Below are positions 1-48,382 of a DNA stretch of 64,000 nt, piece after piece (the stretch's first letter is position 1; each line of letters begins with the position of its first letter). Under the pieces are notes generated by a model that saw only the letters and a program-made list of their open reading frames with translations, was not told the DNA's origin and made no database searches. The position numbers were made by a program, and so were the translations under genes. This DNA comes from Halorubrum xinjiangense (GTDB lineage: Archaea; Halobacteriota; Halobacteria; Halobacteriales; Haloferacaceae): assembly GCF_900102375.1 (NCBI RefSeq), contig NZ_FNBO01000007.1, positions 1 through 64,000 of the forward strand, in the 5' to 3' direction.

Positions 1-350
1 GCCGCTGACTCCCACCTGTTATTTTTGCCAGCAGGGAGTCGCCGACACTTCGACGGACTTGGAGGTATCTTTGGGCTTGCTCGACCAACAGGCACAGACG
101 AACGCTTCTGGCATTCGCGTTCACCGTGTTGGTGTTTCGGATATTGTCTCATTAGCGGCGGCGAGGCCGCCTCCGAAGGCCGTTCGGAATCGCTCCGTTC
201 CGACCTGACCTTACCCTCAGATACGAATTGACACCACTTGAAACTGCGGACTTTGGAAACTCGGGGATACCACCGGACAGTGGTTCGTGTAGAGTTCTGT
301 CGGATTCATCCTGCGGCTAAAGCCGCAGGTATTCTCCTCGAATCTGTATA
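1..350 (+). mobile_element. Right-end remnant of an IS200/IS605-type (TnpB) element
   Basis: No convincing gene is visible in the first 373 bases. At 310-329 there is a perfect 9-bp hairpin, CCTGCGGCT-AA-AGCCGCAGG, followed by TATTCTCC. From memory this is typical of the right ends of haloarchaeal IS200/IS605 and IS1341 elements. The sequence before it is open in short stretches only and contains no recognisable TnpB RuvC or zinc-finger motif, so either the tnpB gene lies outside the window or it has decayed. Hairpin seen directly; element type inferred. Confidence 0.5.
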
Positions 351-373
351 AATGACCGAAAACCGCGTTCCGC

Positions 374-574
374 TCAGCCTTCGAGCTCGAACGCGACCTC
401 GACTTCGGCCTGGTACTCGCGGTCGGCGTCCCCCTGAAGCTCGACTCCGAACTCCTCTACCTCCGCCCAGTAGACGTTCTCGAGGGTGTCCTCGGCGCGG
501 TCGAGGGCGTCGTCGGCCGCGGCGTCGAAGCTCTCCTCGCTCGTCCCGATCAGCGTGATTTTCTTGAACACCAT
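374..574 (-). CDS. Dodecin (flavin-binding protein)
   Basis: This 66-residue protein has the size and pattern of dodecin, a small protein that forms hollow dodecamers storing or buffering riboflavin and related flavins. The N-terminus [16 protein letters not shown] and the central motif [14 protein letters not shown] are family hallmarks; the tryptophan at residue 36 is the one that stacks on bound flavin in Halobacterium dodecin. A longer reading frame runs upstream, but it is the antisense shadow of the neighbouring exporter, so the ATG at 574 is chosen. A TTTTTAT-like TATA box at 602-608 (minus strand) lies about 27-34 nt upstream, which suggests a leaderless transcript. Confidence 0.93.
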
Positions 575-600
575 GTCAGGTGCTGGTAGGACACACGGGG

Positions 601-609
601 GGATAAAAA
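601..609 (-). promoter_or_regulatory. TATA-like box of the dodecin gene
   Basis: Read on the minus strand, ATTTTTATCC lies about 27-34 nt before the dodecin ATG, the usual spacing for a leaderless haloarchaeal promoter. Confidence 0.5.
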
Positions 610-702
610 TGGGCGTCCGCGGACGAGGATGAGAGACGGCGGCCCGAGCGCGACGCGATCCCGTCTCGCGGTCGATCTCGGGAGCCGAGGAGCCGAACGC
701 GC

Positions 703-1488
703 TCAGAGTTCCGGAACGGACGTGTACAGCAGGATGACGGCGTTCACGGTCAGGAGCGCCAGCACGACCCACTGGAAGATGCGCTCGGGGATGTGGTCGA
801 AGATGTACACGCCGATCCAGGCGCCGAGGAACACCATCGGCACGGCGACGAGGGCCTCGATCATCAGCGGCGCCGTCACGTCGCCGGTGTAGGTGAGACT
901 CCCGAGGCGGTACAGCATGAGCGTCCCGAAGAAGGCGGTGAACGTTGCCTTCATCTCCTCGTCGCTCCAGAACCCGCTCGCCGACATGAACGCCCCGTAG
1001 ACGATCATCGGCGGGCCGGGAACGGCGACGGCGCCGCCGAGGACCCCCGCGAGCAGCCCGGCCGTCGCGCCGATTACCTTCCCCGGTCGGTAGTCGTTCT
1101 CCTCGATCCAGTCCGTGACGACGTCGAGCTGCTGGGTCGCGCCGACGACGATGACCGCTAGCACCAGAACCCCGCCGATAGCGACGCGCATCTGTGCCGC
1201 GTCGAACCCGCTGAACACGACGATTCCGAGCGGCATCCCGACGAGGAGCCCGCCGACGGGGACGATCCATATCTCCCAGTCGAACGCGTCCCGGACGCTC
1301 CACCAGACGCGGCCGTTGGCTACCACCGCCGTCGCCGTGAAGATGATCGACGCGCTCGAGGGCGACCGAAACAGCGGCATCATGCCCATCGACACCTGCG
1401 CGAAGCCGAACCCGGCGATACCGTGAACGGCGGCCGCGACGAGGATGACGACCGCGGACAACCCCGTTGTCACCCAGTCGCCCGTCAC
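703..1488 (-). CDS. TSUP-family (TauE/SafE) membrane transporter, putative sulfite/organosulfonate exporter
   Basis: A 261-residue polytopic membrane protein with about eight hydrophobic segments. It shows the TauE/SafE (DUF81, TSUP) pattern: an N-terminal [18 protein letters not shown] segment, and in the second half an internal repeat with [17 protein letters not shown]. Family members move sulfite, sulfonates or other small anions across the membrane; the substrate cannot be read from the sequence. The start is GTG at 1488. It is divergent from the SoxB-like gene and shares a promoter region containing an inverted repeat, which fits a role in sulfur-compound handling. Confidence 0.88.
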
Positions 1489-1591
1489 CGAGACCGCCTC
1501 CGGTACTGCGGGAGCGTGTGCATCTGAACGGGAGAGACGTCGGCTACATCTGTTATTGTAATGTTCGACGCTAAAGCGGTAAGTGAATCAT

Positions 1592-1620
1592 ATCTCAGAG
1601 ATACGGTCTCTGTAATTATA
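1592..1620 (+). promoter_or_regulatory. Inverted repeats next to a TATA-like box in the TSUP/SoxB-like divergent region
   Basis: CAGAGA (1596-1601) and TCTCTG (1607-1612) form a 6-bp inverted repeat with a 5-nt spacer. It overlaps a second palindrome ATCTC-A-GAGAT (1592-1602). TAATTATA at 1613-1620 is the probable TATA box of the plus-strand gene, about 43-50 nt before its ATG. An operator abutting the BRE/TATA is a common archaeal repressor layout; no regulator is identified. Confidence 0.4.
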
Positions 1621-1662
1621 ACCAGACATTCCGAACAGCCGGTGTCGATAACGACACTCAGG

Positions 1663-3462
1663 ATGAACGTACACGAAACGGATATCGGCGACTGGCGGAC
1701 CCTCGACGGCGCCCCCGTCGACGGCGACCCTGTCGGCGGCGACACCGATGACGCCGACGCGGTCTTCGCTCACGTCAGCGACCTCCACGGGCAGCTAACG
1801 CCGCGCCACCAGGTCTACTACGACAACCCGACATCGGGGCCGGAGTTCGACTTCGGAGACGACGACCGCGTCATCGAGCGCGGCGGCGGGATCCCCCTGC
1901 TCGCCGCCAAACTCGACGAACTCCGCGAGGCGTACGACGCCTGTACGCTCATGAGCGGGGACACGTTCCACGGGTCCGCCGTGACCGCCTACACGGACGG
2001 GCGAGCGATGCTCGCCCCCGTCAACGGACACGTCGCGCCCGACGTCTACGTCCCGGGGAACTGGGACTACTCGAACGAGGCCGCCGAGGACGGCGCCTTC
2101 CTCGAACTGATGGACGACCTCGACGCCCCGATTCTCGCGAACAACCTCTACGACTGGGAGACCGAGGAGCGACTGTACGACGCCTACCGAGTTTTCGAGG
2201 TCGGTGGGCTCTCCGTGGGCGTCGTCGGGATGACGAACGTCTACGTCGACCGGATGGCGCCCGCGTTCTACGAGGGGAAGTACCGCTTCGGCAAGCATCC
2301 CGCGCTCCTCGAGGAGTCCGCACGGGCCGCCCGCGAGGACGGCGCCGACGTCGTGGTCGCGGTCACCGAAATCGGTCTCCCGTGGATGGTCCAAGCCGCC
2401 AAGGACTGTCCGAGCGTGGACGTGGCGTTCAGCGCGCACACCCACGAGTACACCTACGACCCGATCGTCGTCGAGGAGACCGAGACGGTCGTCGTCGAGT
2501 CCGGCATGGGGGATGCGCTCGGCCGGGTAGACCTCCGCGTTCGGGACGGGAAGGTTCAGTTCCGTCACCGCCTCTACTGTCTGACCGAGGACGGCGAGCA
2601 CACGCCGGAGCCGGACGCCGACGCGGCGGAGACGGTCGAAGCCGTGCGCGCGCCGTTCTTCGAGGAGACCCCGGGATTCGAGCGCGGGGCCGGCACGCTC
2701 GACCGCTCGCTGGAGACGGTCGTCGGTCGGACGGAAAAATCGCTCTCCCGCCAGTCGCTCCTCGAGAGCGCGTGGAACACGCTGTTCAACGACGCCCTCC
2801 GGGCGCACTTCGACACCGACCTCGCCGTCTCGCACGGGTTCCGGTACGGGACCGCCGTCCCGCCCGGCGACGTCACGCTCGGCGAGCTGTACACGTTCTT
2901 CCCGATGACGACGCCCGTCGCCCGCGGCGTCGCCTACGGCCAGCAGCTCACGACCCACATGGAGCGGTTCCTCGAGGACAGCTTCACGCCGTACCCCTAC
3001 GACCAGGAGGACGGCCGCGTCCGGAACTTCTCCTCGAACGTCGAGGTGACGATCGACCCGACCGCGAAGCGCGGTCGGCGCCTCGTCGAGCTGCGAGTCG
3101 ACGGCGAGACGGTCGACCCGGAGGAGACGTACTCGGTGGCGACGTTCCGCCGCCCCGGCGATCCGGAACGCGACCTCGGCAACTGCGGGTTCCCCTTCCG
3201 AGACGTCGAGGTCGACGACGGGACGATACCGGTCGACGTCATCGCCGAGTACCTCGACGAGCACTCGCCCGTCGACTACGAGGTGACGGGGCTCGTCGAG
3301 ACCGCCGAGGACGGCGGCCGAGCCCAGAACACGCCCGCGGACGGGCCGTACCCGTTCATCCAGCCCGGCGTCGACTACGCGTCCGGCGAGGCGTACTGCG
3401 AGACGGCCATGATTCCGCGCGGGAACGCGTTCCCCGAAGCGGGGCGTAATCGAACGCGCTAG
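1663..3462 (+). CDS. SoxB-like binuclear-metal phosphoesterase / 5'-nucleotidase family protein
   Basis: A 599-residue protein with an N-terminal calcineurin-like metallophosphoesterase domain and a C-terminal 5'-nucleotidase domain. Metal-site motifs are visible: DLHGQ near residue 44, SGDTFHGS, PGNWDYSNE and SAHTHEYTYD. In ordinary 5'-nucleotidases the third motif is GNHEFDYG; here histidine is replaced by tryptophan, and the context GDTxxGS...TxGxxM...NG is closer to what I recall of SoxB (GDTWQGS...GHWEFTYG). SoxB hydrolyses sulfate from SoxY-bound thiosulfate. No signal peptide is evident. The start at 1663 is preferred over an in-frame ATG at 1561 because a TATA box lies between them. 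Its neighbours, a TSUP exporter and a rhodanese/MBL fusion, support a sulfur role, but nucleotide hydrolysis remains possible. Confidence 0.75.
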   Translation: MNVHETDIGDWRTLDGAPVDGDPVGGDTDDADAVFAHVSDLHGQLTPRHQVYYDNPTSGPEFDFGDDDRVIERGGGIPLLAAKLDELREAYDACTLMSGDTFHGSAVTAYTDGRAMLAPVNGHVAPDVYVPGNWDYSNEAAEDGAFLELMDDLDAPILANNLYDWETEERLYDAYRVFEVGGLSVGVVGMTNVYVDRMAPAFYEGKYRFGKHPALLEESARAAREDGADVVVAVTEIGLPWMVQAAKDCPSVDVAFSAHTHEYTYDPIVVEETETVVVESGMGDALGRVDLRVRDGKVQFRHRLYCLTEDGEHTPEPDADAAETVEAVRAPFFEETPGFERGAGTLDRSLETVVGRTEKSLSRQSLLESAWNTLFNDALRAHFDTDLAVSHGFRYGTAVPPGDVTLGELYTFFPMTTPVARGVAYGQQLTTHMERFLEDSFTPYPYDQEDGRVRNFSSNVEVTIDPTAKRGRRLVELRVDGETVDPEETYSVATFRRPGDPERDLGNCGFPFRDVEVDDGTIPVDVIAEYLDEHSPVDYEVTGLVETAEDGGRAQNTPADGPYPFIQPGVDYASGEAYCETAMIPRGNAFPEAGRNRTR

Positions 3463-3470
3463 GCGGCGAC

Positions 3471-3524
3471 GGCGAACGCGACGGGCCCGGCGAACGCGAC
3501 GGGCCCGGCGAACGCGACAGACCC
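3471..3524 (+). repeat. Three tandem 18-bp repeats (GGCGAACGCGACGGGCCC)
   Basis: Units start at 3471, 3489 and 3507; the third differs at three positions. They fill much of the 84-nt gap between the SoxB-like and rhodanese genes. No TATA box is visible in this gap, so the two genes are probably co-transcribed across it. Confidence 0.85.
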
Positions 3525-3546
3525 GACGCGACACAGGCGAGAGACG

Positions 3547-4695
3547 ATGGTCAACAACATCACTGCGGAACGACTCGCGGAGGAGATCGGCGCCGACGAA
3601 CAGTTCACGCTCATCGACGTGCGCCCCGAGGAGAGCTTCGAGGCCTGGCACGTGCGCGACGCGGAGAACGTGCCGTACGACCCCGACAAGGGGTTGAGCG
3701 AGGACCGACTGAACGAGGTGGACGCGCTGGTCGACGACCGACCGGTCGTCGCTATCTGCGGGAAGGGCCTGACGTCGACGCCGTTCGCGTTCGAACTCGA
3801 CGAGCGCGGCTACGACGACGTCTCGGTCGTCACCGGCGGGATGGAGGCGTGGAGCAAGCTCTACGAGACCGTCCCCATCGAGACAGCCGACGACGACCTC
3901 GTCGTCCGGCAGGTCCAGCGCCGAGCGAAGGGCTGTCTCGGCTACGTCGTCGGCTCGAAGGAGGCGGCGGAGGCCGTCGTGGTCGACGCGACCAGACAGA
4001 CCGATCGGTTCAAAATCGCCGCACAGGACGCAGGGCTCTCCGTCGGGCGCGTGCTCGATACGCACGTCCACGCCGACCACGTCTCGGGCGGTTCGACGCT
4101 CGCCGACGAGGTCGGCGTGGCCTACCACCTCGGCGACGCGGCCAGCGAGCGCGGCGTCGAGTACGAGTACGACCCGCTCTCGGACGGCGACGTCATCGAG
4201 GTCGGCGACGTCGAGATCGAGGCGCTACACACGCCCGGCCACACCTCGGAGATGCTGAACTACCTCGTCGACGGGGACCTCCTGTTGACGGGCGACACGC
4301 TGTTCGTCGACTCCGTCGGGCGGACCGAGCTCCAGTTCGGCGAGGACGACGCCTCGCGCGGAGCGGAGCTGCTGTACGACTCGCTCCACGAGACGATCCT
4401 CGAGCTCCCGGACGACACGACGGTTCTGCCGGGCCATCTCGCCGTCACGAGCGACGGGCGCTACGAGAACGGCTCGCCGGGCGAACCCCTCGCGGCCCGG
4501 CTCGGAGACCTCCGCGACGAGCTCGACTTCCTCGGGTTGGATCGCGATGCGTTCGTCGAGCGACTAACCGAGGATACCCCGGAGAAGCCCGCGAACTACG
4601 AGCGAGTCATCGCCATCAACACCGGCAAAGACACCGTCGACGACGAGAAGGAGGCGACCGAACTCGAGCTGGGGCCGAACAACTGCGCCGCCTGA
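3547..4695 (+). CDS. Rhodanese / metallo-beta-lactamase-fold fusion (persulfide dioxygenase-like)
   Basis: A 382-residue two-domain protein. Residues about 1-110 form a rhodanese domain with IDVRPEESF and the active-site loop CGKGLTS (Cys71). Residues about 115-350 form a metallo-beta-lactamase fold with THVHADHVSGG (His173, His175, Asp177, His178), LHTPGHTSEM, TGDTLFVDSVGR and LPGH. The GDTLFVDSVGR segment resembles ETHE1-type persulfide dioxygenases, which oxidise glutathione or low-molecular-weight persulfides to sulfite. In most described fusions the rhodanese domain follows the dioxygenase; here it comes first. Together with the upstream SoxB-like gene and the TSUP exporter it could produce, shuttle and export sulfite or thiosulfate. 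The substrate is inferred. Confidence 0.85.
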   Translation: MVNNITAERLAEEIGADEQFTLIDVRPEESFEAWHVRDAENVPYDPDKGLSEDRLNEVDALVDDRPVVAICGKGLTSTPFAFELDERGYDDVSVVTGGMEAWSKLYETVPIETADDDLVVRQVQRRAKGCLGYVVGSKEAAEAVVVDATRQTDRFKIAAQDAGLSVGRVLDTHVHADHVSGGSTLADEVGVAYHLGDAASERGVEYEYDPLSDGDVIEVGDVEIEALHTPGHTSEMLNYLVDGDLLLTGDTLFVDSVGRTELQFGEDDASRGAELLYDSLHETILELPDDTTVLPGHLAVTSDGRYENGSPGEPLAARLGDLRDELDFLGLDRDAFVERLTEDTPEKPANYERVIAINTGKDTVDDEKEATELELGPNNCAA

Positions 4696-4828
4696 CCGCC
4701 ATCCTCGCGCTGAGCCACGGGGGTTCCAGCGTCGAGAGACGTGGTCGTTTGTCGCGCCGATACCGTCCGACATCCCGGAGGCGAACGCCGGATCGAAGGG
4801 CGCCCGCAGCGTTCGCCGTTGGAAGGCG

Positions 4829-5167
4829 TCAGGGACTGCCGGGCGCGCCTTCCATCACCGCGAAGTCCTCGCCGTCGCGGTCGATGCCGATGACCGCCCA
4901 GTCGTAGGGCGGTTTGGCGTCGACGAGCCGCTCTTGGAGGGCGGCCGCGCGGTCGCGCCACGTGACGAAACACCGGAGCCGGGCCGGGTCGCCCCCGTCT
5001 GCGAGATACGGGTCGAGCTCGTCGTCGTCCATACACAGCACCGTCACGAACACGCGCCGCCACTTGCGTTCCGCGACGAACTCGCGTCCGTCCTCGGAGA
5101 CGGTGTATCCCAGTTCGCGGAAGACGTCTCTGGCCTCGGTCGTCGGGGGGATGCTCGCAGTGGCCAT
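4829..5167 (-). CDS. Conserved haloarchaeal protein of unknown function
   Basis: A 112-residue soluble acidic protein. The N-terminal third (EARDVFRELGYTVSEDGREF) looks like a small alpha/beta domain, followed by WRRVFVTVL and VTWRDRAAALQERL. No catalytic motif or metal site is obvious. Single gene, starting 24 nt inside a gap before the next minus-strand gene. I recall a DUF7116-like haloarchaeal family with this look but am not certain of the number. Confidence 0.75.
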   Translation of the reverse strand: MATASIPPTTEARDVFRELGYTVSEDGREFVAERKWRRVFVTVLCMDDDELDPYLADGGDPARLRCFVTWRDRAAALQERLVDAKPPYDWAVIGIDRDGEDFAVMEGAPGSP

Positions 5168-5270
5168 CTACCTCGAAGTTCGGCACCATCCGTGATAAAC
5201 TTTCTCACGATTCCGACCGCGGAGAATCGGCGGCGCCGTCGGGAACCGTCCGGAGAGCAGCGAACGCGGC

Positions 5271-5516
5271 TTACTCGTGAGCCGCGTCCCACTCGTCCGG
5301 CTTCCGGAGGTTGCCGCACTCAGTACACTGGATCCGGCCCATCGTGTCCATCGCGGTGTCGAACGACCCGCAGTTGCCGCAGCGGAACCCCCAGCGGGAC
5401 TCGCCCGCCTCGTCCTCGAAGACGAGGTAGAAGGGGCCGTCCGCGCCGCGCTCGGTGCGCGACCGGTCGGTGTACACCCGCTCCCCGCTCGGCGTCGTCG
5501 ACGCTTCCAAGCTCAT
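5271..5516 (-). CDS. Small zinc-ribbon protein
   Basis: An 81-residue protein with a C-terminal zinc ribbon: Cys46-x2-Cys49 (CGNCG) and Cys64-x2-Cys67 (CTECG). The N-terminal half, containing FYLVFEDEAGESRWGF, is a conserved beta-rich stretch. It resembles a haloarchaea-specific family I recall as DUF5816. Zinc ribbons of this size often bind nucleic acid or protein, but no partner is implied by the neighbours, an Fe-S assembly gene and a hypothetical gene on the same strand. Confidence 0.8.
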   Translation of the reverse strand: MSLEASTTPSGERVYTDRSRTERGADGPFYLVFEDEAGESRWGFRCGNCGSFDTAMDTMGRIQCTECGNLRKPDEWDAAHE

Positions 5517-5606
5517 AGCGTCCCGTACCCTCCCGAGCGACTTAAGCGGCGGACTCGTGCGTCGGGAGAAAAGGGAACAAAAGCCCGAGAATCGGACCGC
5601 GACTCG

Positions 5607-5981
5607 CTACGTCCGGAACGACTCGCCGCAGCCGCACTCGGAGACGACGTTCGGGTTCTCGACCTCGAAGCCGGCCGCCTGAAGCCCGTGTTCGTAGTCG
5701 AGCGTGCTCCCGCCGATGTAGTTCTTGCTCGCAGGGTCGACGAACACGCGGAGTCCGTGGTGTTCCACGACGAGGTCGTCCGATTCCGGCTCGGTGTCGA
5801 AGCGCATCCCGTACGACAGCCCCGCGCAGCCGCCCTGCTGGACGAACAGCCGCAGTCCGGCGATGTCGGTGTCAAGCCCCTCGCCCTCCAAGAGCGAGAG
5901 CGCCTCCTCCGCGGCGTCCGGCGTTACCTCGATCGCCGGGTCGTTCCCCTCGGTCCCGGTGTCGGCCGGTTCGGTACTCAT
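5607..5981 (-). CDS. HesB/IscA-family iron-sulfur cluster assembly protein
   Basis: A 124-residue A-type Fe-S carrier. The three conserved cysteines are present: Cys52 in QQGGCAGLSYGM, and Cys116 and Cys118 in SECGCGESF at the C-terminus. The middle SKNYIGGSTLDYEH matches the IscA/ErpA core, which receives or transfers 2Fe-2S or 4Fe-4S clusters to apo-enzymes. The start is taken at the ATG at 5981; the in-frame extension upstream is Arg/Pro-rich and looks untranslated. The N-terminal 15 residues are acidic and not part of the fold. Monocistronic by appearance. Confidence 0.93.
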   Translation of the reverse strand: MSTEPADTGTEGNDPAIEVTPDAAEEALSLLEGEGLDTDIAGLRLFVQQGGCAGLSYGMRFDTEPESDDLVVEHHGLRVFVDPASKNYIGGSTLDYEHGLQAAGFEVENPNVVSECGCGESFRT

Positions 5982-6067
5982 GCGAACGGGTTCGGCACGG
6001 ACACTCAAAACCCTGCCGGCGGGAGCGATCCGGGCGACCGACGGTCTCGGGCGTAGCGGGGGCCCGC

Positions 6068-7267
6068 TCACGGCGTCTCCGCGCGGGAGTCGGGCGTCTC
6101 CGCGTCGGCGTCCGGTCTCGCCCCGGACGCCGCGTCGGCCGCCGGATCGCGGGGGGGTTCGGGGTCGGGAGCGGGGGATTCGGCGTCGAGAGACGAGGCG
6201 GCCGGGAATGACTTGCCGGCGCTCGTGACGGTCACGTCACGTTTCGGGTACGGGATCTCGATCCCGGCGTCGCCGAGCGCCACGTACAGCGCGCGGTTGA
6301 GTTCGTGTTGCGCGCGGCGGCGCCGAGTCGGGCCGTTGACCCAGCAGAGGAGCTCGTACTGGAGCGCGGAGTCGCCGAACGACCGGAAGCGGGCGCGGGG
6401 TTTCGGCGAGTCGAGGACGAGCGGCTCCGCGGCCAAGACCTCCATGGCGAGCGTCTCGAAGGCGTCGACGTCGGTGCCGTAGGCGACACCGATGGGAACC
6501 CGGATGCGCCGGCGGCGCTGCGGGGCGGACTCGTTCGTCACCTTGGCGGCGTTGAGCGCCGCGTTCGGCACCGTCACCAACACCTCGTCGCGGGTGAGCA
6601 GCGTCGTCGAGCGCACGCCGACCTTGATCACGGTCCCGGCCGTGCCGTCGTCCAAGACGATGTAGTCGCCGATCTTGTACGTGTCGTCGAAGTACAGCGC
6701 GATGCCGCCGAAGAAGTTCGCGACGGTGTCCTTCGCCGCGAAGCCGACCGCGATGCCCGCGACCCCCGCCGCGCCGAGCAGGGGCGTGATCTCGATGCCC
6801 CACAGCCACAGCAGGGTGCCGGCGCTCCCGACCAGCACCGCGAGCGTCCAGACGTTCGAGAAGACGGGCGCGAAGTCGAACCGGCCGCCCTCGGCGTTGA
6901 CCGCGGCCACGAGCCGGTTCACGACGGCGTTGGCCGCGTACGCCCAGACGAGGACGATCACCGACAGCGACGGCCGCCCGAACACCGCGTCGAGCAGCCG
7001 CGGCTCCACTATCACCGACGCCCGCACCGCGGGGACCTGCGTGAGGACGAAGACGCCGGCGAGCGCGGCGGTGACGACGAGCGGGGCGCGCAGCGAGGCG
7101 ATGACGATGTCGTCGTACGCGGAGTCGGTGGTCGAGACGATCCGACGGGCGACTCGCAGGACGACGAACTCCATCCCCACGGCGGCGACGATCGAAACCG
7201 CGAGGACCGCGAGGGTCGCCTCGACCGCCGAAAACCCCTCGAACAGCGCCGCGAGCGACGGTATCAT
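6068..7267 (-). CDS. MscS-family mechanosensitive ion channel
   Basis: A 399-residue membrane protein with about five hydrophobic segments in the N-terminal half and a soluble C-terminal domain. The pore-lining and beta-domain signature is clear: a Gly/Ala-rich helix LGAAGVAGIAVGFAAKDTV followed by NFFGGIALYFDDTYKIGDYI and VPNAALNAAKVTNES. Such channels open on membrane tension to release solutes after hypo-osmotic shock, relevant for a halophile. The last about 50 residues are a disordered Ala/Pro/Asp-rich tail. The start ATG at 7267 is chosen over an upstream frame that is Arg/Ser-rich and begins inside the spacer. Confidence 0.92.
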   Translation of the reverse strand: MIPSLAALFEGFSAVEATLAVLAVSIVAAVGMEFVVLRVARRIVSTTDSAYDDIVIASLRAPLVVTAALAGVFVLTQVPAVRASVIVEPRLLDAVFGRPSLSVIVLVWAYAANAVVNRLVAAVNAEGGRFDFAPVFSNVWTLAVLVGSAGTLLWLWGIEITPLLGAAGVAGIAVGFAAKDTVANFFGGIALYFDDTYKIGDYIVLDDGTAGTVIKVGVRSTTLLTRDEVLVTVPNAALNAAKVTNESAPQRRRRIRVPIGVAYGTDVDAFETLAMEVLAAEPLVLDSPKPRARFRSFGDSALQYELLCWVNGPTRRRRAQHELNRALYVALGDAGIEIPYPKRDVTVTSAGKSFPAASSLDAESPAPDPEPPRDPAADAASGARPDADAETPDSRAETP

Positions 7268-7319
7268 GCCTTCGAGACGCCGCTGTGCGAGATAACCGTT
7301 TCTGCGGAAGACGCGTCGC

Positions 7320-8012
7320 TCACCGGGTCGGTGTCGTCCCGACAAGATCGACGAGGTCGCGGAGGGTGTCGATCTCCGCGGTCGGCTCGACATCGAGGTC
7401 GAGCGCGGCGTTGTGCTCGCGCCTGAGGAACACGCCGTCGAGGCCGGCCCGCTCGGCGGCGATCACGTCGGTGGCGCGGTCGCCGACGTAGAGTCCCCCG
7501 GTCGCGTCGAGCGCGTCGAGCGCCTCGTTCAGGTAGTGCGGGTCCGGCTTGCGGCGGCGGAACCCGTCCGGACCGAGGTCGCGGCCGCGGACGAACGAGA
7601 ACGCGTCGAGCCGGAAGTGGTCGACGACGAACTCCACGGTCGGGTGGTAGTTGTTGCTCACGAGCCCGACGGGGACGCGCTCCGCGAGCTCGCCGATCGC
7701 GTCGACGTCCGGACAGAGCCGTCTCGTCCCGGCCGCGAGCCGGGCGACGGAGCGCTTCGCGCTGCGCTCCTCGCGGGCCCGGAACAGGGTCGCGGGATCG
7801 ACGCCGAGCTCCTCGCAGGCGCCTTGGAAGCCGTCGTCGTACTCGTACGTCTCCAGCGGGCGCCGGAGGTCGCCGGGAACCCGCAGGTCCCGTTCCTCGA
7901 GCACGTCGTCGAGCGCACGGCTGTGAACGGCGTCGTCGGTCCCCCAGCCGTCGAGGATCACGCCGTCCATGTCGAAGAGGACGACCCCCTCGCTCCGTCT
8001 CTCGGTCGCCAT
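7320..8012 (-). CDS. HAD-superfamily hydrolase, last gene of the phn operon
   Basis: A 230-residue haloacid dehalogenase-like phosphatase. Motif I is VLFDMDGVILD (nucleophile and acid aspartates), motif II VSNNY, motif III the lysine of RRKPDP, and motif IV GDRATDVIAAE; the segment between motifs I and II is a helical cap. Its ATG shares a base with the stop codon of the upstream phnE (TGATG), so the two are translationally coupled. Position downstream of phnDCEE suggests it acts on the imported compound, for example as a phosphonatase-type or phosphate-ester hydrolase, but the cap shows no diagnostic phosphonatase lysine that I can assign. Confidence 0.87.
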   Translation of the reverse strand: MATERRSEGVVLFDMDGVILDGWGTDDAVHSRALDDVLEERDLRVPGDLRRPLETYEYDDGFQGACEELGVDPATLFRAREERSAKRSVARLAAGTRRLCPDVDAIGELAERVPVGLVSNNYHPTVEFVVDHFRLDAFSFVRGRDLGPDGFRRRKPDPHYLNEALDALDATGGLYVGDRATDVIAAERAGLDGVFLRREHNAALDLDVEPTAEIDTLRDLVDLVGTTPTR

Positions 8013-8806
8013 CAGCGCACCTTCCGTCGGGCGTACGCCGACACGCCTTCGCTGACGAGCACGACGCCGAGGATGGCGACGAGGAGCGCCGACACCGTCC
8101 GCCACGCGAACGAGTCGATCGCCTCGAACAGCTGGACGCCGATCCCGCCGGCGCCGACGAACCCGAGGATCGTCGCCGCGCGGACGTTGATGTCCCAGCG
8201 GTACACGCTGAGCCCGACTAAGGCGGGCTTGATCTGCGGGACGATTCCGTAGACGAGCAGCTGAGCGGGGCTCGCGCCGGTCGCCCGGACCCCCTCCACC
8301 TGCCCGAAGTCGATCTCCTCGATCTCCTCGCCGAGGAGCTTCGCGAGGAACCCGATCGACCGGACCGCGGTCGCGACGGTGCCGGCGAGCGCGCCCGGCC
8401 CGAACATCACGACGAACAGCAGCGCCCAGACGATCGTGTGGACCGACCGCGAGACGGTGACGATGACCTTCCCGAGCGCGTACGTCGCCCGGTTCGGCGT
8501 CGTGTTCTCCGCGGCGATGTACGCGACCGGCGCCGCCATCGCCACCGCCGCGATCGTCCCGACGACGGCGATCTGTATCGTCTCGGCGAGCGGGCCGACC
8601 GCGTTCGGCAGGTACGCCCAGTCCGGGGGGTACATGCGTCCGATCAGGTCACCGACTTGTGTCGGAGCCGTAGTCACGTACCGGAGACTCATGTCGAGCC
8701 ACTGCCACGAGGCGATCACCACCGCGGCCGCGATGACGACGGACCCGATCCGGAAGAGACGCTCCCTCGCGTCGAACCGGCTCCAGTCGCGGGTGGCTCC
8801 CGCCAT
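8012..8806 (-). CDS. phnE: Phosphonate-type ABC transporter permease PhnE (second copy)
   Basis: A 264-residue inner-membrane permease with about six membrane segments. It has the binding-protein-dependent transport motif EGVRATGASPAQLLVYGIVPQIKP, the EAA loop that contacts the ATPase. It is clearly a paralogue of the upstream permease, sharing RWDINVRAATILGFVGAGGIG near the C-terminus, so the two probably form a heterodimeric channel. The ATG at 8806 shares one base with the stop of the upstream permease. The much longer upstream frame is Arg-rich shadow sequence and was discarded. Confidence 0.92.
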   Translation of the reverse strand: MAGATRDWSRFDARERLFRIGSVVIAAAVVIASWQWLDMSLRYVTTAPTQVGDLIGRMYPPDWAYLPNAVGPLAETIQIAVVGTIAAVAMAAPVAYIAAENTTPNRATYALGKVIVTVSRSVHTIVWALLFVVMFGPGALAGTVATAVRSIGFLAKLLGEEIEEIDFGQVEGVRATGASPAQLLVYGIVPQIKPALVGLSVYRWDINVRAATILGFVGAGGIGVQLFEAIDSFAWRTVSALLVAILGVVLVSEGVSAYARRKVR

Positions 8807-9642
8807 CACTGGACCCTCCGTCTGACGAGGGCGCTCACGAACTCGGCGACGAGGACCACCGCGATGATCGCGATGAGAATCGCCGCCACGTAGTCGTACT
8901 CGTACCGTTGGTAGGCCCGCTGGAGGAGGACGCCGATCCCGCCGGCGCCGACGATCCCGACGATCGTCGACGACCGGATGTTGATGTCCCACCGATACAC
9001 GGCGAGTCCGGCGAAGCGCGGAACGACCTGCGGGACGACCCCGTAGACGAGGCTCTGGAACCGGGAGGCGCCGGTCGCCCGGACTGCCTCGACACCTCCC
9101 ATGTCGATGTCCTCTAAGTCCTCGGCGAACAGCTTCGAGAAGAAGCCGATCGTCTTGAAACTGATCGCGACGATCCCGGCGAGCGGGCCGAACCCGAGCG
9201 CGATGACGGCGATGATCGCGACGATCAGCCCGTCGATGGCGCGCGTGGCGCTGATGATACCGCGACTGAGGTAGTAGGTCGGCTTCGGCGAGATGTTCTC
9301 GGCCGCCCCGAACGCCACCGGGAGGCTGATCGCGATCCCGGCGACGGTCGCGACCATCGCCATCGCGATCGTCTCGATCATGCGATCAAACAGTCTGAGC
9401 ATGTTTTCGTTGCCGGTCTCGGGCGGCAACATCGAGTCGATCAGCTCGTAGCCGTACCCGATCCCGGAGAGGAAGCGGGCGGGCGTGATCTGGAGGCTCG
9501 CGACCGACCACGCGATCAGCGCGAGGACGAGGCCGTACACCAGCCACTTGACTCGGCGGCTCCGGAACGCGGTCGGGCGCTGCCACGACCGTCGATTCGC
9601 CGCGCCCGTCGACCCGGCCGGCGAGGACGACTCGGTCGCCAC
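8806..9642 (-). CDS. phnE: Phosphonate-type ABC transporter permease PhnE (first copy)
   Basis: A 278-residue permease with an N-terminal cytosolic stretch of about 25 residues and around six membrane segments. The EAA-type loop reads GVEAVRATGASRFQSLVYG, and the C-terminal RWDINIRSSTIVGIVGAGG is the PhnE signature. The start is GTG at 9642, three bases after the phnC stop. It pairs with the second phnE and the PhnC ATPase in the membrane. Confidence 0.92.
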   Translation of the reverse strand: MATESSSPAGSTGAANRRSWQRPTAFRSRRVKWLVYGLVLALIAWSVASLQITPARFLSGIGYGYELIDSMLPPETGNENMLRLFDRMIETIAMAMVATVAGIAISLPVAFGAAENISPKPTYYLSRGIISATRAIDGLIVAIIAVIALGFGPLAGIVAISFKTIGFFSKLFAEDLEDIDMGGVEAVRATGASRFQSLVYGVVPQVVPRFAGLAVYRWDINIRSSTIVGIVGAGGIGVLLQRAYQRYEYDYVAAILIAIIAVVLVAEFVSALVRRRVQ

Positions 9643-9645
9643 GGG

Positions 9646-10494
9646 TCAGTCCTCCGCGGGCAGGCGGTCCGGGTCAACGTCCGAGCCGTTGCGGGCGCTC
9701 GATTCTTCGTCCGGACCCGACAGCCAGTCCGGGTCGGTGGCGGCCGACTCCGGCGCCTCCTCGCCGCGGTAGATGACGCCTTTCGACTCTCCGGTGAGAT
9801 CGCACGCCGGCCCGTCGAAGACGAGCTCGCCGGCGTGGAGCCCCAGGATTCGGTCCGCGTACGCCTCCGCGAGGTCGACCTCGTGGATGTTGATCAGCAC
9901 GGGCACGTCGCGGTCCTCGGCGATGTCGGTGAGCAGCTCCATCACGTCGCGGGAGGTCTCGGGGTCGAGGCTCGAGGTCGGCTCGTCGGCCAACAGGATC
10001 TTCGGCTCCTGAACGACCGCCCTCGCGATCCCGACGCGCTGGCGCTGCCCGCCGGAGAGCTCGTCGACCCGCTTGTCCTCCATGCCGTCGAGCCCGACGA
10101 GGTCCAGCAGCTCGTAGGCGCGCTCGACGTCCTCCGGCGGGAAGTTCCGCCGGAGCGCGGCCCAGTTCGAGACGTAGCCGAGGCGCCCGGAGAGCACGTT
10201 CTCCATCACGGTGAGCCGCTCGACGAGGTTGTACTCCTGGAACACCATCCCGATGTTCCGACGCGCGTCCCGCAGGTCGTCCTCGTTGAGCGACGTCAGC
10301 TCCTTCCCGTCGAGCCGAACGCTCCCGGCGGTCGGCTCAGTCAGCCGGTTGATACATCGGACGAACGTGCTCTTCCCGGCGCCGCTCGGACCGATCATCG
10401 CCACGAACTCGCGGCCGTCGATGGTCACGGAGACGTCCCGGAGCGCCTCGTCGCCGGTCGGGTACGTCTTGCCGAGGTTCTTCGTTTCCAGCAT
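9646..10494 (-). CDS. phnC: Phosphonate-type ABC transporter ATP-binding protein PhnC
   Basis: A 282-residue ABC ATPase. Walker A is GPSGAGKS, followed by the Q-loop region [23 protein letters not shown], the signature LSGGQRQR, Walker [15 protein letters not shown] and the H-loop [30 protein letters not shown] is characteristic of PhnC rather than of PstB or amino-acid transport ATPases. The acidic C-terminal 50 residues are a halophile-type extension. It powers uptake through the two PhnE permeases; phosphonate, phosphite or phosphate esters are all possible cargos. It starts 3 nt after phnD. Confidence 0.94.
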
Positions 10495-10497
10495 CGG

Positions 10498-11715
10498 TCA
10501 CAGGTTCCCGCTCTCGTACTCGACGCCGTTGTACCGCTGGATGATCAGGATGTCGTTGAAGACGTTCTTGTAGTCGATTTCGACGTACTCGGCCTCACCG
10601 GTGTTTTCGGCGTACTCGGTGTCCGTCCAGTCGGTCCCGATGGTCGCCTCCTTGATCCCTTCGACGATGTCCGGGTGGAGGTCGTATCGGTGGACCATCG
10701 GACCCGGCGGGAACGGGTTGCTCGCCCAGACCACTTTGAAGTCGTCGTAGTCGATGTCCTCTGTCGACCCGATGAGGTCATCGACGCAGGTGCTGCAGAT
10801 CGGACCGGCGTCGTAGTCGCCAACCGCGATGCCGCGGGCGGTCTGGTCGTGGCCGCCCGAGAATTCCCTCTCGTAGTCCTCGCCGGCCGTCACGTCGAAG
10901 AACTGGTCGAACAGCGCCGACGGCGCCTGGTTACCGGAGTTCGACGCAGGCTCGGAGTGCGTGACTGTGACATCGTCGCGCGCGAAGTCGTTGACGGACT
11001 GGATGTCGTGCTCGTCGTCGCGGGTGATCGCCAGCAGCCGGTAGCCGAACTGTCCAGAGGGACTTATCGGGACCGCGAACGGCACGATGCCGCCGAGGTT
11101 GACGCCGAACGCCGACGTCCCTGTCGAGATGTCGCCCAGGTGTCCGCGACCCGCCCGGAACGCCTCGACCGTCGCCGCGTTCGAGTCGACGGGCTGCCAC
11201 TCGACCGTCCGGCCCGTCGTCTCCTCGAGCCGATCCAGGAGCGGCTGGATGGTCTCCTGGTACTGCGCCTGGCCGGATTCGCCGGGCTTGTCCACGAAGA
11301 TGAGCGGGTCGGGGTCGACCCACTCGCTCTCGTCGTCGGGCAGATCCCGCGGCGGCTCGCCGTGAGCGATCTCGTCGACATCCTGGTTCCGCATGTTCTC
11401 CAGGTCCGTCTGACTCCCCTGGAAGTAGTCGTTCTCCGCGATCGCCGTCATCAGGTAGTTGTTCTCCTCCCAGTTGGGCTCGGCGGGATTGAACTCCGAA
11501 GCGTCCGCGAGCATCGGGTCGCCCGACCCGCCGTCGCCGCCGTCGCTTCCGTCACTGCCGTCTTCGCTGCTCGACTCTAGGCCCGCTCCGGCCTCGTTGC
11601 CGCCGCCGCTCCCGCCGGAACAGCCTGCCAAGCCGGCGATTCCGACCGCGCCGCCAGCGAGGATGAACTTCCGTCTGGAACTCGTCTCCGTCCGTTTGCC
11701 GGTGTCTTCCACCAT
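10498..11715 (-). CDS. phnD: Phosphonate-type ABC transporter substrate-binding lipoprotein PhnD
   Basis: A 405-residue secreted binding protein. The N-terminus has a twin-arginine motif SSRRKFI (Arg14-Arg15) and a lipobox LAGC with Cys32, so it is exported folded by Tat and lipid-anchored, as usual in haloarchaea. A Gly/Ser/Asp-rich linker of about 50 residues follows. The periplasmic-type domain carries IQPLLDRLEETTGRTVEWQ, FRAGRGHLGDISTG and VVWASNPFPPGPMVHR, the pattern of PhnD/SsuA/TauA-like phosphonate binders. It heads the operon and should set the substrate. Confidence 0.92.
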   Translation of the reverse strand: MVEDTGKRTETSSRRKFILAGGAVGIAGLAGCSGGSGGGNEAGAGLESSSEDGSDGSDGGDGGSGDPMLADASEFNPAEPNWEENNYLMTAIAENDYFQGSQTDLENMRNQDVDEIAHGEPPRDLPDDESEWVDPDPLIFVDKPGESGQAQYQETIQPLLDRLEETTGRTVEWQPVDSNAATVEAFRAGRGHLGDISTGTSAFGVNLGGIVPFAVPISPSGQFGYRLLAITRDDEHDIQSVNDFARDDVTVTHSEPASNSGNQAPSALFDQFFDVTAGEDYEREFSGGHDQTARGIAVGDYDAGPICSTCVDDLIGSTEDIDYDDFKVVWASNPFPPGPMVHRYDLHPDIVEGIKEATIGTDWTDTEYAENTGEAEYVEIDYKNVFNDILIIQRYNGVEYESGNL

Positions 11716-12046
11716 TACGACTCAAACTCCGCATTTCGGGGTAAGAAGGCTGCTATGAGCCGAACATGGCCGATCGTACCAGCACGTGGCCGTCCCGAGC
11801 GGAACGTACCGTTCGCACCGCTACGAGAGGAACTGTGACATATAAATCGGTACATATCGCTCCGGAGACAGATACCGGGCGGAGAAGAGGTCCGGGGTAC
11901 GGGGACGAGAGCGGGGGTACGGGGACGAGGACCGCCGGACGGGAGCGAGGACCGCCGGACGGGGACGAGGGCCGCCGGACGAGGACGAGGGCCGCCGGAC
12001 GAGGACCGCCGGGCCGCGTTTCCGCCCGGCGGAGCGGCCGCTCGGC
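11716..12046 (-). promoter_or_regulatory. phnD upstream region with TATA-like box
   Basis: This 331-bp gap between hisD and phnD holds no gene. CCGATTTATATG on the minus strand (about 11838-11850) is the best TATA candidate for the phn operon and lies about 125 nt before the phnD ATG, so a long leader is implied unless a weaker box is used. The rest is filled by the 20-bp tandem repeats listed separately. No Pho-box can be assigned by eye. Confidence 0.4.
11901..12012 (+). repeat. Tandem 20-bp repeats, about five and a half units
   Basis: Units begin at 11901, 11921, 11941, 11961 and 11981 with a partial unit at 12001. The consensus is GGGGACGAGGRCCGCCGGAC; the first unit is the most divergent. 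The array lies between the hisD stop and the phn promoter. Confidence 0.9.
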
Positions 12047-45780: not shown

Positions 45781-47079
45781 ATGACACGTGGGTTCACCAC
45801 CCGGAGTCTCCACGCCGGCACCGAGCCCGATTCGGCCACCGGCGCCCGCGCCACGCCGATCCACCAGACCACGTCGTACGTCTTCGACGACGCGGACACG
45901 GCGGCGGAGCTGTACGCGCTCCGGGCGGAGGGGCACATCTACTCCCGGCTGTCGAACCCGACGGTGAACGTCTTGGAGGACCGGATCGCCGACCTCTCCG
46001 GCGGGTCGGACGCGGTCGCGACCGGATCGGGGATGGCCGCGTTCGACGCGATCACGACCGTCCTGGCGAGCGCGGGCGACAACGTTGTCGCCAGCTCGGA
46101 GATGTACGGCGGCACGGCCGCGTACCTCACCAGCATCGCGGACCGCCGCGGGATCGAGGCGCGGCTGGTCGACACGCTCGATTACGAGGCGTACGCGGAC
46201 GCGGTCGACGACGACACCGCGTTCGTCCACGTCGAGACGATCGCGAACCCCTCGCTCGTCACGCCCGACTTCGAGCGGCTCGCCGAGATCGCCCACGAGC
46301 ACGCGGTCCCCCTCGTGGTCGACAACACGTTCGCGACGCCGTACTGCTGTCGCCCGTTCGAACACGGCGCGGACGTCGTCTGGGAGTCGACGACGAAGTG
46401 GATCACGGGCAACGGCACCACCGTCGGCGGAGTGGTTATCGACGGCGGGCAGTTCCCGTGGGACCACCCCGACGCCGACTACGACGAGCTCGACGGCGAG
46501 TCGCCGGCCTATCCCATCGACTTCGTCGAGCAGTTCGGCGACGCCGCGTTCGCCAACGTCGTTCGCCAGCGCGGCGTGCGCCCGACCGGCGGCCAGCAGT
46601 CGCCCTTCGACGCGTGGCAGACGATCCAGGGGCTCAACACGCTCCCGCTGCGGATGGAGCGCCACTGCGAGAACGCGCGGCGAGTGGCCGAGTTCCTCCG
46701 CGAGGACGACCGCGTCGACTGGGTGAGCTACCCCGGGTTCGATGACCACCGGAGTCACGACAACGCCGCGGAGTACCTCGACGGCTTCGGCGGGATGGTC
46801 ACCTTCGGCGTCGACGGCGGGTACGAGGCGGCGAAGGCGTTCTGCGAGTCGGTCGAGCTGACGAGCTTCCTCGCGAACATCGGCGACGCGAAGACGCTCG
46901 TCATCCACCCGGCCTCCACGACGCACGCGCAGATGGACGAGGAGCAACAGCGGCTCGCCGGCGTCTACCCGGAGATGCTCCGGCTCTCGGTGGGGATCGA
47001 GGACGACGACGACGTGATCGCCGACCTCGACGCGGGGCTGGCCGCGGGTGAGCGCGCCGCGGGGGGAGGGGAGGTGTGA
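45781..47079 (+). CDS. metY: O-acetylhomoserine sulfhydrylase (MetY)
   Basis: A 432-residue PLP enzyme of the Cys/Met metabolism family. The PLP lysine is Lys206 in [13 protein letters not shown], with [17 protein letters not shown] and [10 protein letters not shown] around the cofactor. It makes homocysteine from O-acetylhomoserine and sulfide. It is longer than cystathionine gamma-lyases and includes the insert ([16 protein letters not shown]) typical of O-acetylhomoserine sulfhydrylases. The next gene, 4 nt downstream, is metX, which provides its substrate. Confidence 0.93.
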
Positions 47080-47083
47080 ACCG

Positions 47084-48382
47084 ATGAGCGCCGTCCCGAC
47101 CGATCACGGCGTCGCCTCGCTCGGCGAGTTCACCTTCGAGTGCGGGCAGTCGGTCCCCGACTTCGAGGTCGCCTACGAGACCCACGGCGAGTTCGACGGC
47201 GACAACGTCGTGCTGGTCTGTCACGCGCTCACCGGCAGTCAGAACGTCGCGCGGTCGCCAGAGCCGGAACGCGACGCCGAGACCACCGGGGCCGGGCAGG
47301 CGGGGCAGGCCCGCGCGTGGTGGGACGACGTCGTCGGCCCGGGGAAGGCGATCGACACGACCGAGTACTACGTCGTCTGCGCGAACGTCCCCGGCTCCTG
47401 TTACGGGACGACGGGCCCGGCCAGCGAGCGGCCCGCGGACCTGGACCTGCGCGAGGAGCCGGACCACGACCGCTGGGGCACCGCGTTCCCGCCGGTCCAG
47501 GTCGAGGACTGGGCGCGCGCGCAGCGGCGCCTGCTCGACCACCTCGGCGTGGGGCGACTTCGAGCGGTCGTCGGCGGGAGCGTCGGCGGGATGAACGCCT
47601 TAGAGTGGGCGAAGCGGTACCCGGACGACGTCGACCGCGTGGTCGCCATCGCGACCGCCGGGCGCCTCGACGCGCAGTGCCTCGCGCTCGACGCGGTCGC
47701 GCGCCGCGCCATCCGCGCCGACGCGGATTGGAACAGGGGGAACTACTACGGCGACGACCGGCCCGACCCGACAGAGGGGCTCGCCATCGCCCGCCAGATC
47801 GGGCACATCATGTACCTCTCGAAGGCGTCGATGGAGCGGAAGTTCGGGCGGCGGTCGGCCGGCCGCGACTCCCTGACGCGAGAGGACGGTGACCTGGGCC
47901 TGCCGCCGGAGCCGACGGCCGGCTTCTTCCCGTACCGCGAGGTGGAGTCGTACCTCGACTACCAGGCAGAGGGGTTCGGCGACCGCTTCGACGCGAACAG
48001 CTACCTCTACCTCACGCGCGCGATGGACGAGTACGACCTCGCCGCGGGCCACGGAAACGACGCCGACGCGCTCGCCGCCTTCGAGGGCGAGACCCTCCTC
48101 GTGAGCTTCACCGCCGACTGGCACTTCACCGTCGAGCAGTCCGCCTCCCTCGCGGACGCTTTCCGCGAGGTCGACGTGCCGGTCGCGCACCACGTGGTCG
48201 ACTCCGACCACGGCCACGACGCGTTCCTCGTCGAGCCGGAACACGTTGGCCCACCGGTCCGCGACTTCCTCGCGGACGGCGTCGACGGCCGCGCCGTCTC
48301 CGACGAGGGCGGCGACGACGGCGACGACCCCCGACCGGATTCCGACCACGCGCCCGTCCACGCGAGCCTGTTTCGGGGGTAG
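47084..48382 (+). CDS. metX: Homoserine O-acetyltransferase MetX
   Basis: A 432-residue alpha/beta hydrolase-fold enzyme. The nucleophile is Ser166 in [13 protein letters not shown], and the catalytic His is in [10 protein letters not shown], with an Asp at [20 protein letters not shown] supplies the oxyanion region and the [11 protein letters not shown]-like [13 protein letters not shown] is typical. It transfers acetyl from acetyl-CoA to homoserine. The C-terminal about 40 residues are an acidic extension. Four nt after metY, so the two form an operon. Confidence 0.94.

Follow-up and report, generated by a model that had tools for sequence, protein, structure and literature searches.

Genes of the locus

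What might a SoxB-like hydrolase do in haloarchaea, given that we found neither SoxY nor SoxZ in 47 genomes that carry it? We addressed this question at a locus near the start of a 64,000-nucleotide stretch of the Halorubrum xinjiangense genome (here called the window). An initial annotation had placed genes for a TSUP exporter, a SoxB-like enzyme, and a rhodanese/metallo-beta-lactamase (MBL) fusion together at positions 703 to 4695, and matches to Pfam and other protein models located all three. The first gene (703 to 1488, minus strand) encodes a TSUP (TauE/SafE) anion exporter (PF01925, 75 bits; cut-off, 32.6) and is divergent from the second (1663 to 3462, plus strand), which encodes a SoxB-like two-metal hydrolase of 599 residues, assigned from its match to the SoxB model TIGR04486, its position in a tree, and its fold. 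The longest open reading frame for this gene runs from 1561 to 3462 (plus strand); we placed the start at 1663 using a codon model and orthologues. The protein contains PF02872 (68.4 bits; cut-off, 23.6) and PF00149 (31.7 bits) domains. The motifs that had been picked out by the initial annotation are present, with GDTFHGS at residue 99 and GNWDYSN as part of PGNWDYSNE at residue 131, and the SoxB motif given for comparison, GHWEFTYG, can be read directly in Methylosinus SoxB. Base 1 of the window is the first base of contig C7, and the locus is readable only rightward of that base.

The third gene (3547 to 4695, plus strand) encodes an N-terminal rhodanese domain (PF00581) and a C-terminal MBL domain (PF00753), a combination of the persulfide-dioxygenase kind. 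Among the solved relatives of this protein are ETHE1 and BpPRF as well as further MBL/rhodanese proteins; the matched structures were 3tp9, 4ysb, 5ve3, and 4chl. It keeps the rhodanese Cys71 and the metal motif H173xH175xD177H178 (HVHADH), and it scored 58 bits on the Blh model NF040641 (bifunctional sulfur transferase/dioxygenase), below the cut-off of 625. Judged by these sequence features, the rhodanese-MBL protein resembles persulfide dioxygenases.

Comparison with 5′-nucleotidases

Public plasmid records label the haloarchaeal SoxB-like protein a 5′-nucleotidase. Its PF02872 match agrees with that label; the domain is also common to SoxB-type proteins. The window protein scored 204.2 bits on the SoxB model TIGR04486 versus 57 bits on the UshA model. 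For comparison, Escherichia coli UshA scored 950 on the UshA model and 101 on the SoxB model, and two true SoxB proteins scored 861 and 726 bits on the SoxB model. SoxB was also the best solved structure by sequence. An AlphaFold2 model of the window protein (mean pLDDT, 81.3) gave SoxB as its best match with both Foldseek and VIA (Z, 35.7; rmsd, 2.3; 491 residues aligned); the best nucleotidase match reached a Z of 33.4, within 2.4 Z units of SoxB.

The catalytic and base-binding residues of UshA were compared individually. We take H117 and D120 of UshA to be its catalytic His-Asp pair, F429 and F498 to be the Phe pair that stacks on the base, and D504 to lie in the GGDG loop. In the SoxB-like protein, H117, D120, F429, N431, F498, and D504 are replaced by W (W134), S (S137), M (M415), T, R (R497), and R (R503), respectively. 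A haloarchaeal 5′-nucleotidase (L074) retains the UshA residue at each of these six sites. A tree of 42 rows separated SoxB, together with every SoxB-like row, from nine nucleotidases with support of 100/97, and an earlier tree of the same size supported this group at 99/98. The placement among 5′-nucleotidases that the initial annotation had set against its own reading was not seen. Thus, despite the plasmid records and the PF02872 score, it is very unlikely that the protein acts as a 5′-nucleotidase or UDP-sugar hydrolase: six UshA residues are replaced, the protein falls outside all nine nucleotidases, and no signal peptide is visible. We rejected nucleotidase identity on residues, tree, and fold, and we conclude that assignment of the protein as SoxB-like rather than UshA-like is supported.

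Comparison with SoxB

The initial annotation had likened the protein to SoxB. As far as model score, residues, tree, and fold are concerned, this likeness stands, but the protein is not SoxB itself. Its score of 204.2 bits falls below the curated equivalog cut-off of 550 bits for TIGR04486. In the tree, five SoxB rows formed a clade of their own (100/100), with the haloarchaeal rows outside it. The nine haloarchaeal rows formed a separate clade (100/100) on a long stem branch (1.73 changes per column) and joined the bacterial SoxB-like rows (98/93). Two His residues of SoxB are replaced by Asn and Glu, as described below. SoxB proteins, that of Paracoccus among them, carry a twin-arginine signal for export to the periplasm, but inspection by eye revealed no RR and no hydrophobic start in the window protein. 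Paracoccus SoxB has an RR start and the Runella SoxB-like row has a twin-arginine start; most of the bacterial SoxB-like relatives examined, like the window protein, have no visible signal peptide.

SoxB acts together with SoxYZ as its carrier. Searches for SoxY and SoxZ (PF13501 and PF08770) found neither in any of 47 carrier genomes. Since the 14 controls of that search also gave no match, we ran a further control with seven plasmids. All three Sox plasmids were positive for each family, and none of the four SoxB-like plasmids was. In addition, neither SoxY nor SoxZ was found at any of the 78 SoxB-like loci listed in the family scan described below, whereas both were present at four of four SoxB control loci. 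These data agree with the earlier statement that haloarchaea are not known for a Sox pathway with SoxYZ. We rejected true SoxB identity because of the model cut-off, the separate clade, the changed motif, the absence of a visible signal peptide, and the SoxYZ searches. We conclude that the protein is not SoxB proper and that it represents the haloarchaeal branch within a SoxB-like family of wide distribution.

Insertion and spread in haloarchaea

We compared window positions 1 to 12000 by blastn with stretches from six relatives of the same genus, picked among the closest matches, in each of which both genes flanking the cassette are present. The left flank is a dodecin-like gene (374 to 574, minus strand), named by eye, with a tblastn match in all six relatives. 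The right flank is a DUF7116 gene (4829 to 5167, minus strand; PF23429), which all 39 genomes from the genus contain. Both genes lie outside the cassette. They are ~4.2 kb apart in the window, and the extra DNA consists of the TSUP, SoxB-like, and rhodanese-MBL genes. Their spacing in the relatives is 31, 33, and 46 bp (L216, L212, and L214, respectively) or 608, 679, and 1,031 bp (L213, L211, and L215, respectively). Because the flanking genes are 31 to 46 bp apart in three of the six close relatives, we conclude that the three genes form a discrete insertion of ~4.2 kb (624 to 4832). We rejected a mobile-element signature at the cassette ends, having found no clear flanking repeat there (weak matches only), no tRNA in window positions 1 to 9000, and no predicted gene for a transposase within the inserted stretch. 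There is also no regulator gene inside the window cassette.

Of the 391 genomes of class Halobacteria, 46 contain full-length SoxB-like homologues, at 49 places in all and with 62 to 100% identity. Two such places each were found in three genomes (G163, G292, and G350), and many further homologues are carried on haloarchaeal plasmids. The distribution of the SoxB-like gene is a patchy, mobile pattern. At 30 of the 49 places, a close rhodanese-MBL gene lies 61 to 145 bp from the SoxB-like gene, and a TSUP homologue is present at 27 of 41 haloarchaeal SoxB-like loci. The spread of the homologues, their recurrent rhodanese-MBL neighbor, and the insertion in the window show that the grouping is no chance occurrence. 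Seen from the rhodanese-MBL side, 24 of the 29 closest copies (≥79% identity) adjoin a full SoxB-like gene, 3 adjoin a SoxB-like C-terminal fragment, and 2 adjoin neither. The 19 of 49 places that have no close rhodanese-MBL neighbor count against the function proposed below. Elsewhere in the genome that carries the window, TusA (three places) and DsrE (two places) sit on contigs other than that of the cassette.

Proposed function of the cassette

We propose that the cassette is a mobile three-gene module that oxidizes and disposes of cytoplasmic sulfane sulfur and in which the SoxB-like hydrolase would free sulfate from a thiosulfonate or a polythionate in the cytoplasm. We regard this reading, which is drawn from gene content and sequence comparison, as evenly poised between right and wrong. 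In this scheme, the rhodanese-MBL enzyme would form sulfite by oxidizing a persulfide of low molecular weight; through its rhodanese domain, it would also move sulfane sulfur and could join it to sulfite to yield thiosulfate. The two-metal site of the SoxB-like enzyme would cleave the terminal sulfonate of a thiosulfonate (R-S-S-SO3-) or polythionate as sulfate and would hand the persulfide back to the rhodanese-MBL step. The TSUP protein would export sulfite or a like anion. In favor of the scheme are the SoxB-side ancestry and fold of the hydrolase, its replaced UshA residues, its linkage to the rhodanese-MBL and TSUP genes, the searches that found no SoxY or SoxZ in 47 carrier genomes, and, as described below, the sulfur genes near its relatives, the hydrolysis of trithionate by SoxB, and the E. 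flavus precedent.

The same genes may instead serve sulfide/persulfide detoxification of the Cst/Blh kind, in which case the SoxB-like protein would drain or repair S-sulfonated thiols (e.g., S-sulfo-gamma-glutamylcysteine) rather than participate in the oxidation of thiosulfate. A persulfide-dioxygenase-type enzyme and a TauE-type exporter form the core of known detoxification operons; Cst operons, for example, detoxify sulfide with a persulfide dioxygenase and a TauE exporter. The SoxB-like genes of other haloarchaea have a P-type ATPase cluster (copper-type by eye) and DUF302 and SHOCT proteins as neighbors, which gives these loci the look of a stress island. However, to our knowledge, neither Cst nor Blh/BigR operons include a SoxB-like gene. 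Moreover, in one study of Sox, SoxY-S-sulfonate, unlike the thiosulfonate, supported no Sox activity and did not reach the metals of SoxB (PMC5336275). We consider detoxification of this kind rather unlikely.

The wider family and its gene neighbors

To survey the wider family, we aligned the window protein with seven relatives from bacteria and used the alignment as the query of a scan. At least 595 places matched, and at least 523 of them encode a relative. Among the matches, 78 loci were listed, 47 of which are non-haloarchaeal and come from Bacteroidota, Alphaproteobacteria, Bacillota, Chloroflexi, Nitrospirae, Methanoculleus, and others. Within flanks of up to 8 kb, 26 of the 47 listed non-haloarchaeal loci carry at least one of the sulfur families searched for. 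These families are the persulfide-dioxygenase type (18 loci), YeeE (14 loci), DsrE (12 loci), rhodanese (12 loci), and TusA (10 loci), in a tally in which one gene may count several times. Named sulfur gene clusters also lie beside SoxB-like genes on plasmids of Sporosarcina, Runella, Cohnella, Novosphingobium, and Hymenobacter. Close to the relatives L062 and L063 lies a gene for a molybdopterin reductase whose highest score was on the model of the thiosulfate reductase PhsA, although it stayed under the cut-off of that model. At other nucleotidase loci, the searched sulfur families were found in 0 of 14 cases, six of which had short flanks and one of which has an annotated DsrE that the scan missed. 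We conclude that the sulfur-gene neighborhood noted by the initial annotation is borne out by the neighboring gene families at haloarchaeal and other loci.

Other observations count against the sulfane sulfur reading. Of the listed non-haloarchaeal loci, 21 of 47 have none of the searched families, although some of these loci are short; one Hymenobacter SoxB-like copy lies among purine genes; and SoxB-like relatives occur in methanogens, in which an O2-dependent partner would be useless. Bosea and Bradyrhizobium copies adjoin Dsb, cytochrome, or regulator genes.

The copy among purine genes also favors an alternative in which the protein hydrolyzes some other phosphate or sulfate ester and travels with sulfur genes, not acting on sulfane compounds. 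So does membership in the phosphatase fold superfamily, with nucleotidases so close to SoxB in Z score. The conservation of sulfur-gene linkage across archaea and bacteria and the SoxB-side ancestry of the protein make this alternative improbable.

A large SoxB-like family that is filed as 5′-nucleotidase and has no SoxYZ nearby spans bacteria, methanogens, and haloarchaea (at least 523 candidate places). If its members release sulfate from thiosulfonates or polythionates in the cell, surveys of the sulfur cycle that rely on the Sox set miss the family, and haloarchaea gain a sulfate-forming route.

Metal site and loop cysteine

The codons at 2059 to 2064 (plus strand) specify N133-W134, which align with N116/H117 of UshA and with the HW of SoxB. 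In all 66 haloarchaeal rows, W134 replaces the catalytic His of UshA and N133 replaces the His of SoxB; UshA also has Asn at the position equivalent to 133. The codon at 2368 to 2370 (plus strand) specifies E236, which replaces the His of SoxB SHNG in 66 of 66 rows. UshA (H217) likewise carries His there. In one alignment (A3), both positions 133 and 236 are His in 22 of 22 other relatives; this alignment leaves out Sporosarcina and Cohnella, both of which have Asn at position 133. Since two His residues of SoxB are Asn and Glu in the haloarchaeal protein, its catalysis may differ.

Such changes raise the alternative that the metal site has decayed, leaving a relative that no longer catalyzes a reaction or that has a solely regulatory role. 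Glu at 236 and, relative to SoxB, Asn at 133 in every haloarchaeal row, together with the long stem branch, are consistent with decay. However, D40, H42, D100, H259, H261, and R394 are retained in every row that covers them, either Asn or Glu can serve as a metal ligand, and position 133 is Asn in UshA as well. We consider loss of activity quite improbable.

The only invariant cysteine among the 66 haloarchaeal rows is C508 (3184 to 3186, plus strand), which lies in the loop PGDPxRDLGNCGFPF. Its motif reads GNCGF or GGCGF; the arm of SoxY is GGCGG. The C508 loop has a pLDDT under 50 and follows the stretch aligned to F498-D504 of UshA, residues that hold the substrate in that enzyme. Exported SoxB-like proteins of Runella and Pontibacter likewise combine a VDY tail with a Cys-containing loop that can be aligned. 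A common origin of these loops with the haloarchaeal Cys loop is unsupported: the tree groups Runella and Pontibacter with other bacterial rows (90/73) and places haloarchaea outside (98/93). We raise as a doubtful speculation that C508 acts as a built-in SoxY. Loaded with thiosulfate or sulfane sulfur, it would move on its flexible loop to the metal site with the Asn and Glu changes and release sulfate there, and its persulfide would then go to the rhodanese-dioxygenase encoded by the neighboring gene. This would amount to a one-protein, cytoplasmic, carrier-free Sox reaction.

Among the papers listed by literature searches that covered mainly non-subscription journals, none dealt with a SoxB-like protein from haloarchaea, judging by titles and the openings of abstracts. 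New here are the haloarchaeal clade, its replacement of His by Glu at the position of a metal ligand, and its invariant loop cysteine. With its Glu and its cysteine, the haloarchaeal clade makes SoxB chemistry without SoxYZ testable on one protein.

Relation to known systems

The window protein and SoxB (TIGR04486; PDB 2wdc and 4uwq) have a common fold and form a joint clade relative to the nucleotidases; both also have Trp at the position of the catalytic His, contain the R394-[YW]-G stretch, and have lost base-binding residues. The window protein differs in having Asn and Glu for two His residues, a clade of its own, a score below the cut-off, and no visible signal peptide, and SoxYZ were not found. 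True SoxB hydrolyzes trithionate (PMC5336275). The “SoxB” described in PMC3512248 is a cytochrome oxidase subunit and is irrelevant here.

The nearest relatives are the bacterial and archaeal SoxB-like proteins, such as those of Sporosarcina (WP_338657090), Novosphingobium (WP_069710271), and Methanoculleus. Like the window protein, they occur in sulfur-gene clusters and mostly have no signal peptide. In another alignment (A2), six of seven bacterial rows are 29 to 31% identical to the window protein and one is 26% identical. These relatives differ in having mostly HW and SH motifs and in having neither the haloarchaeal Cys loop nor the C-terminal tail.

The sulfide detoxification operons (Blh/BigR and Cst) resemble the cassette in their MBL-rhodanese dioxygenase and TauE/SafE-type exporter. 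For the Blh/BigR operon, a persulfide dioxygenase and a TauE-type exporter are reported as the core (PMC5823870). The cassette differs in its SoxB-like gene, which these operons are not known to include, and in having no regulator gene within it.

The initial annotation had considered that a SoxB-like hydrolase acting on another sulfur carrier would be new. That part is overstated, because SoxB-type action without SoxYZ has a precedent, the closest one backed by experiment, in Erythrobacter flavus 21-3; the haloarchaeal clade and its Glu and Cys features are new. That strain has no genes for the Sox complex, yet it requires tsdA and soxB to form sulfur globules when given thiosulfate, and tetrathionate is the substrate suggested for its SoxB by the authors (PMC7608252). 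That pathway (TsdA, SoxB, and SdoA/SdoB) resembles the cassette in its SoxB-type protein annotated as a metallophosphatase/5′-nucleotidase, its MBL/rhodanese dioxygenase, and its lack of a Sox complex. It differs in being bacterial and in including TsdA, and the likeness is drawn from the published description of the pathway. We conclude from the sequence comparisons that the cassette is real and discrete, that it is of a kind with known precedent, in which a predicted SoxB-like hydrolase stands beside a persulfide-dioxygenase-type enzyme and an exporter, and that the functional prediction for the haloarchaeal variant is clear.

Neighbors of SoxB-like genes

At four loci (L161, L168, L176, and L139), hosted by Methanoculleus and by two MAGs, one likewise euryarchaeal and one from the Thermoplasmatota, the SoxB-like gene was directly adjoined by a DsrE-type ORF. 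Methanogens are strict anaerobes; hence, an O2-using dioxygenase is excluded there as the partner of the SoxB-like protein. A DsrE neighbor was also annotated for a UshA-like protein of Salinibacter (locus L096), which falls outside the SoxB side. One SoxB-like copy of Hymenobacter (L190) is an exception to the sulfur neighborhood of these genes, being surrounded by genes of purine catabolism (nucleoside deaminase and hydroxyisourate hydrolase).

Gene remnants and extra copies in other genomes, and two features of the window

At three places (G310:C10:177876, G012:C1:1916207, and G161:C2:49441), the SoxB-like gene is represented by a C-terminal fragment, adjoining an apparently intact gene for the rhodanese-metallo-beta-lactamase (rhodanese-MBL) protein. 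The partner gene thus seems to persist at these places while the SoxB-like gene decays. Genome G350 (loci L065 and L081), which is Natrialba-like by comparison with loci L124, L132, and L134, carries two full SoxB-like copies on a single contig and a third, divergent copy elsewhere.

Within the window, the SoxB-like and rhodanese-MBL genes are separated by three tandem 18-nt repeats of the CGGCGAACGCGACGGGCC type (positions 3470 to 3528). An adjacent gene pair at positions 45781 to 48382, named by eye as a putative O-acetylhomoserine sulfhydrylase and a homoserine acetyltransferase, may be a second sulfur-related spot.

Association with a molybdopterin oxidoreductase

At Natribaculum-like and Natrinema loci (L062, L063, and L103), the SoxB-like, rhodanese-MBL, and TSUP exporter genes are adjoined by genes for a molybdopterin oxidoreductase and a 4Fe-4S protein (4Fe-4S/NrfD in L063). 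With a score below the model's cutoff, the top model for this reductase was the thiosulfate reductase PhsA.
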